64,000 nucleotides of DNA from Clostridia bacterium (GTDB lineage: Bacteria; Bacillota; Clostridia; Oscillospirales; CAG-272): assembly GCA_017520505.1 (NCBI GenBank), contig JAFXFN010000001.1, positions 1 to 64,000 on the forward strand, written 5' to 3'. Made by a program: the position numbers and the translations under genes. Positions 191 to 42,715 of the stretch are shown one piece after another. The notes below the pieces were generated by a model that saw nothing but the letters and a program-made list of their open reading frames with translations, was not told the DNA's origin and made no database searches. Positions within the stretch are counted from its first letter, which is position 1, and every line of letters starts with the position of its first letter.

Positions 191-400
191 TGGTACAATA
201 TAAGAGTAGAAACTCAATGCAAAAAGCATTGCAAAACTACTCTTATTTTTATACAATAAAGAGGAAAGGTCCGGCGTAATTCTTATTGGATTAACACATC
301 CGATCGATAAACTGTCGACCGCCTCTTATTGTATACATTCGAGTAAACAGGTTGAAGCATAGCCTTCGTGTAACGAGCCAAAATGAGTGTCAATAAGAGT
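191..400 (+). ncRNA. candidate IS110 bridge RNA in the transposase leader
   Basis: The roughly 250-base non-coding left end before the transposase folds into three consecutive hairpins, the layout described for IS110-group bridge RNAs (5' stem-loop, target-binding loop, donor-binding loop). Hairpin 1: taagagtag (201-209) with ctactctta (237-245), topped by caatgc/gcattg (215-220, 226-231). Hairpin 2: 251-264 with 322-334, 13 pairs and one bulged A, with inner ggtc/gacc (268-271, 317-320), enclosing a large internal loop. Hairpin 3: acattc (335-340) with gagtgt (385-390, one G-U), enclosing about 44 bases. The pairings are seen directly; the role is inferred from the IS621/IS110 literature. 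Exact RNA ends are unknown. Confidence 0.7.
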
Positions 401-42452: not shown

Positions 42453-42715
42453 TAAAAAATTCCTGTCCTACTCATAGGACAAGAATAAAATTCCTGCGGT
42501 GCCACCTAAATTAACGGTTATCCGTTCACTTTGCCGTACACGCTCGATGTACGCATTCATATAACGGTGAATCTCCGTCGGCCATTACTCACTTTCGCTT
42601 TCCTGCCGCCCTCATAAGTCCATTCATTGACCGCTTCACTATGGCATCGCACCCCCTGCCACTCTCTGAAAGCTTTACGGAAAACTACTAATCTTAATCA
42701 AAGGTTTCATATATT
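42453..42715 (-). promoter_or_regulatory. tryptophan T-box riboswitch
   Basis: On the minus strand an AGAGAG box at about 42665 opens stem I. The specifier loop reads AGTAATGGCCGACGG, with TGG (Trp) at 42584-42582. The T-box GGTGGCACCGC (42506-42496) contains the TGGC bulge for the tRNA 3' end, followed by a competing terminator tcttgtccta/taggacagga (42484-42461) and a T-run. Uncharged tRNA-Trp should favour antitermination and switch on trpB and the downstream fusion gene. Confidence 0.92.

Follow-up and report, generated by a model that had tools for sequence, protein, structure and literature searches.

A bridge RNA very probably encoded in the left end of an IS110-group insertion sequence from a Clostridia bacterium, with guides matching its insertion site and both element ends

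The left end of an intact IS110-group insertion sequence, located near the start of the window (the whole 64,000-nucleotide stretch of DNA analysed here), almost certainly encodes a bridge RNA. This RNA, at 201-399, would be transcribed from the junction of the joined element ends and would guide recombination at a TT core. Every computable defining feature of an IS110-group bridge RNA is present: we found the anatomy of such an element, conservation and covariation of the fold, guides complementary to the site as well as to the ends, and an uninterrupted site in relatives. The proposal of the preliminary description that this RNA belongs to the IS110 bridge RNAs is thus borne out by the fold, by covariation and by four guides matched to site and ends. 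As its four guides between them match both element ends and the insertion site, the element very probably functions as an RNA-programmed DNA recombinase, although one of a known type, and the family to which it belongs implies that it may be programmable, as had also been put forward.

The element, its recombinase and the fold of the left end

The whole element occupies 189-2013 on the forward strand, on which all element features given below also lie, and carries a TT core at each end; these limits follow from the ends aligned in seven relatives with both ends known and from the empty site in relatives. Its recombinase gene (445-1647) encodes 400 amino acids, with the DEDD_Tnp_IS110 and Transposase_20 domains both above cut-off, so that the transposase is intact, as first described. 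By sequence, the recombinases of IS621 and ISCro4 are the closest solved structures. Catalytic residues D7, E57, D99, D102 and S322, located through an alignment with IS621, are retained; S322 falls on the YES-motif serine, and we would identify it on this basis with S241 of IS621 (S241 and D102 of IS621 taken from PMC11208158).

The left end measures about 254 bp and the right end (1648-2013) 366 bp. A left end longer than the right is a tendency of the IS110 group and not a defining feature; the window element departs from it because its right end carries a 278-bp foreign insert. This right end is a mosaic in which 1668-1945 derives from another IS110 lineage, with 75-81% identity to the right ends of L006, L008 and L090, and contains the last part of a second recombinase gene (NKFLRIYYARAKECLVNT), while about 1942-2013 belongs to the element's own lineage. 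The right ends of relatives measure 120-134 bp. An inverted repeat, TTGTCAACA..TGTTGACAA, is situated inside the mosaic segment 1668-1945, and the right flank (2012-2480) consists of dispersed repeats with many copies in this and related genomes.

No further copies of the element were found in its own genome, and because it is single-copy there, its mobility is not seen directly. Relatives include ten full-length elements at 86-93% identity and others at about 50-57%; additional ones were found within the same family and order, one in the search of viral contigs, and the plasmid search returned one distant match. In one relative (L048, 491-2501), the left end is split and the element starts about 2 kb upstream of the gene, which indicates another insertion within its bridge RNA region.

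Folding of 185-444 yielded -69.1 kcal/mol, against -48.0 +/- 4.2 in dinucleotide shuffles (z = -5.0), and none of 200 shuffles folded as well. The three successive hairpins first reported at 201-245, 251-334 and 335-390 were recovered at essentially those positions. The 5′ stem-loop (201-245) consists of stem 201-209/237-245 and inner stem 215-220/226-231. In the target-binding hairpin (251-334), outer stem 251-264/322-334 contains 13 pairs with A260 bulged, and an asymmetric internal loop lies further in, in agreement with the 13-pair base and internal loop first noted for the middle hairpin; the inner stem is formed by 268-275/314-320 and the apical stem by 288-291/298-301. The donor-binding hairpin (336-389) has its base at 336-340/385-389 and a consensus apical stem at 353-357/364-368, the latter not being the best fold of the single sequence. 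In folds of 201-400, pairing probability was close to 1 for most pairs of the target-loop stem and about 0.9 at the base of hairpin 3. Inclusion of 189-200 abolishes this base, since the element start and the donor guide complement each other. RNAalifold likewise paired 189-194 with the donor guide; since the -10 box occupies these positions and transcription should begin downstream of them, we took this to be complementarity between guide and donor and not a helix within the RNA. With transcription from the junction promoter expected to begin near 206-207, the outermost pairs of hairpin 1 may lie outside the transcript.

Alignment of homologous left ends revealed constant stems and variable loops. 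Across 56 distinct sequences, in an alignment that was fitted to the covariance model, 92.5% of cells were paired and 181 were doubly changed, compared with 45 in shuffles, and this signal vanished when partners were slid. A smaller, unfitted alignment gave 94.2% paired cells, with 65 doubly changed versus 21. The search for co-varying stems suggested at the outset thus returned a clear signal, and the left end carries the structured RNA of the IS110 group, namely a 5′ stem-loop followed by two others that contain internal loops. Searched against 394 genomes of the order, a covariance model built from 20 left ends produced 83 matches, spread over 47 genomes. No bridge RNA family in Rfam matched the left end at gathering or permissive thresholds; the only Rfam match in the window was a T-box leader (42472-42710, minus strand).

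Two possible partners of strand 323-331

Strand 323-331 (CTCTTATTG), the 3′ side of the outer stem of the target loop, can pair with the 5′ arm of that stem and also with 391-399 (CAATAAGAG). The second pairing comprises nine of nine Watson-Crick pairs that covary, and it would extend the donor-loop stem. A possible addition to the bridge RNA reading, rather than an alternative to it, is that the guides are real and the RNA adopts two states, 323-331 pairing with either 254-263 or 391-399, so that each molecule offers mainly one loop.

Several observations point in this direction. RNAalifold preferred 323-331/391-399 on a diverse alignment. In alignment A3, the target-loop outer helix was 95.6% paired and the alternative helix 81.2% over its nine pairs; in the latter, changes on both sides affected 30 cells, versus 13 in shuffles, and in the smaller set A1 the alternative helix was 95.4% paired, with double changes in six of seven pairs; own partners also bound better than permuted ones (-8.66 versus -6.63 kcal/mol), a same-sense control being without effect, though relatedness inflates these statistics, which counts against the two-state idea. 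Computed folds switch completely: the target-loop helix wins fully when the 5′ arm is present, and the alternative wins when the RNA starts at 262 or later. In addition, the IS621 complex takes its two loops from two RNA molecules (PMC11208158).

Other results speak against two states. The alternative helix has a probability near 0 in the full-length RNA, and a single-sequence search for shared strands, itself under-powered, was significant in only some members. Nor does a promoter for a shorter RNA stand out: the weak, speculative TTGCAA-17-TACAAT at 229-257 in the left end was rejected as a firm claim, since six promoter-like sites were found and 5.8 are expected from shuffles, which is no better than chance.

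We regard the pairing 323-331/391-399 as probably real, and covariation of both pairings suggests a two-state RNA. Even so, that the RNA works in this manner, including the variant in which RNAs with different 5′ ends play different parts, strikes us as rather unlikely. Slightly more doubtful still is the wider proposal that the bridge RNA of the clade is bistable, with one strand shared by the target-loop stem and an extended donor-loop stem and mainly one loop per molecule. If true, bistability would account, at the RNA level, for a synaptic complex in which one molecule supplies the target loop and another the donor loop; alternatively, transcripts with different 5′ ends would take different roles. 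The target-loop stem is much longer here than in IS621, and the second possible partner of its 3′ strand is not seen in IS621, whose stems are separate; the shared strand, if functional, would represent a new element of bridge RNA mechanics.

Guides, insertion site and junction promoter

Guide positions were read by the scheme of IS621, in which loop stretches, all of them containing the core dinucleotide, read the left and right sides of the target and of the donor (PMC11208160, PMC11208158). The first loop of the bridge RNA is complementary to both target strands, core included. Its left target guide, AATTCTTATT (278-287), is identical at ten of ten positions to flank and core at 181-190; within this match, the left half of the target site in the host flank, AATTCTTA (181-188), equals 278-285 and is uninterrupted in relatives. 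The right target guide, CGATAAAC (305-312), is complementary at eight of eight positions to 2011-2018 (GTTTATCG); within it, 305-311 pairs with TTTATCG (2012-2018), which comprises the core and the right half-site of the target. The second loop is complementary to the donor, that is, the circle junction, again with the core included: the left donor guide, AACAGGTT (346-353), recurs at eight of eight positions as left donor plus core in the right end (2006-2013), and the right donor guide, GCCAAA (377-382), pairs at six of six positions, including one G-U, with core and right donor TTTGGT (189-194). The target sequence is CAAATTCTTATTTATCG and the donor sequence AACAGTAACAGGTTTGGTACAAT.

Joining the right end to the left across TT places the predicted -35 box TTGACA (1994-1999) 17 bp from the predicted -10 box TACAAT (194-199), both in the window and in six relatives; two members of a second subfamily give TTGAAT-17-TACCAT. 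By its sequence, this would be the junction promoter characteristic of the IS110 group.

A genome with 96% identity over the left flank carries the uninterrupted site ACAAATTCTTATTTATCAACC. G107 and G103 have the target without interruption, as do viral contigs. Read in the sense of the neighbouring gene, the target is CGATAAATAAGAATTTG, and loci in the viral collection have the same gene start behind this sequence. TT(T) is single in the empty site; hence there is no target duplication beyond the core. In several loci the target lies about six bases after a TATAAT-like box and ahead of the Shine-Dalgarno sequence.

Across relatives, guides track the sites of their own elements. For the left target guide (70 elements), fit to the own upstream region averaged 7.71/10, versus 6.68 for the regions of others and 7.06 in the best of 5000 permutations; for the right target guide (37 elements), the own right flank scored 8.16 versus 5.97, with 6.62 as the best of 5000 permutations. 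The permutation p-values ignore relatedness and are hence optimistic, yet several unrelated donor and target types still agree. L049 and L076, whose right ends were misplaced automatically, were left out of the right-guide test; L005, also misplaced, was kept and scored low. The right donor guide co-changes with the element start (CCAAA/TTTGG, CTAAA/TTTAG, AATAG/CTATT, AACAG/CTGTT, GCAAA/TTTGC). Mismatched guides occur in L041, L049, L054 and L013, as expected if flanks drift.

These matches bear directly on the idea that the leader acts in cis to regulate the transposase mRNA, as an attenuator or translational leader, and is not a guide RNA. Its position directly upstream of the gene, with which it would share a transcript, and the switch-like appearance of 323-331/391-399 are compatible with such a role, but loop matches to the host flanks and to the element's own two ends, together with loop variation that follows host flanks, would be left unexplained. 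Moreover, no terminator-like site occurs on the + strand within 150-2100, and the ribosome site at 431-436 is not covered by the alternative strand, so we consider cis-regulation very improbable. Local duplication could produce the identity between the left target guide and its neighbouring flank, but that the guide matches arose by chance, or from a left end built of flanking copies, is scarcely credible, given that four independent stretches match four places (two as copies, two as reverse complements), that other elements match their own, different flanks, and that the flank motif occurs without the element.

For the bridge RNA, we infer transcription, RNA binding and strand exchange from IS621. 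In the excised circle, right-end TTGACA would meet left-end TACAAT across the TT core, and the resulting promoter would transcribe the left end, whose RNA would be bound by the recombinase. The target-binding loop would then pair with the host site AATTCTTA-TT-TATCG and the donor-binding loop with the circle junction AACAGG-TT-TGGT, allowing the DEDD/serine recombinase to exchange strands at the TT core. The host site is a leader motif that recurs and frequently lies between a gene's -10 box and its Shine-Dalgarno sequence.

Known systems and the range of host targets

Bridge RNAs have already been predicted in 85.7% of IS110-group elements (PMC11208160). The present element resembles IS621 of Escherichia coli (IS110 group; PMC11208160, PMC11208158; comparison sequence L055) in having its RNA in a long left end, in the order of 5′ stem-loop, target-binding loop and donor-binding loop, in a core dinucleotide within the guides, in a promoter rebuilt at the circle junction and in its DEDD and serine recombinase. 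It differs in its core (TT here, CT in IS621), in a 400-aa recombinase alignable in short stretches only (E 4.9e-12), in its right target guide (7-8 nt versus 4) and in its target, a leader motif here and a REP element in IS621. With the seekRNA of ISEc21, likewise of IS110 type (PMC11187229), it shares an upstream non-coding region in which a bottom-strand match precedes a top-strand match, a junction promoter and the lack of target duplication, whereas for ISEc21 mainly a processed 74-nt RNA was found and the target differs. The recombinase kind and the RNA-guided principle are common to IS1111-group seekRNAs or bridge RNAs (e.g. ISEc11; PMC11187229, PMC11208160). In that group the RNA is encoded downstream of the gene, and the ends carry subterminal inverted repeats of 7-17 bp. 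Neither holds here, which rules out membership: the RNA precedes the gene, and exact inverted matches within 60 bp of the two ends reach at most 6 bp.

In a pattern search of the element's own genome, 12 places matched CAAATTCTTATTTATCG with two mismatches or fewer, and a reversed control pattern returned none. The leader motif thus recurs in the genome, and the guide therefore addresses a recurrent host motif, which may serve as a source of many harmless landing places. The motif, CGATAAATNNGAATTTG, often lies about six bases past a TATAAT-like box and ahead of a Shine-Dalgarno sequence at these 12 places, and some copies follow a dispersed repeat that ends in GGCGATAAAACAGAA. The right flank of the window element is itself a dispersed repeat that abuts the same leader motif elsewhere.

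Bridge recombinases are under development for programmable DNA insertion, inversion and excision. With this element come its four guides, a TT core and a precisely defined target. Several dozen natural relatives have guides redirected to leader motifs, Shine-Dalgarno sequences or terminators, and these offer ready data on guide evolution. A guide redirected in nature has already been described in ISMch6 (PMC11187229).

Much of the wider clade (e.g. L007, L009, L065-L085, L102-L110) is inserted in Shine-Dalgarno sequences, with guides reading CCTCC on the opposite strand. By a crude rule, 25 of 63 flanks of related elements contain a Shine-Dalgarno sequence and start codon, and literature searches for IS110 elements targeting Shine-Dalgarno sequences returned nothing relevant. 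A subfamily with donor TTTAGTAC (L050, L054, L058/L122, L115 and L116) is located on the 3′ side of intrinsic terminator stems, and its guides end in a T run.
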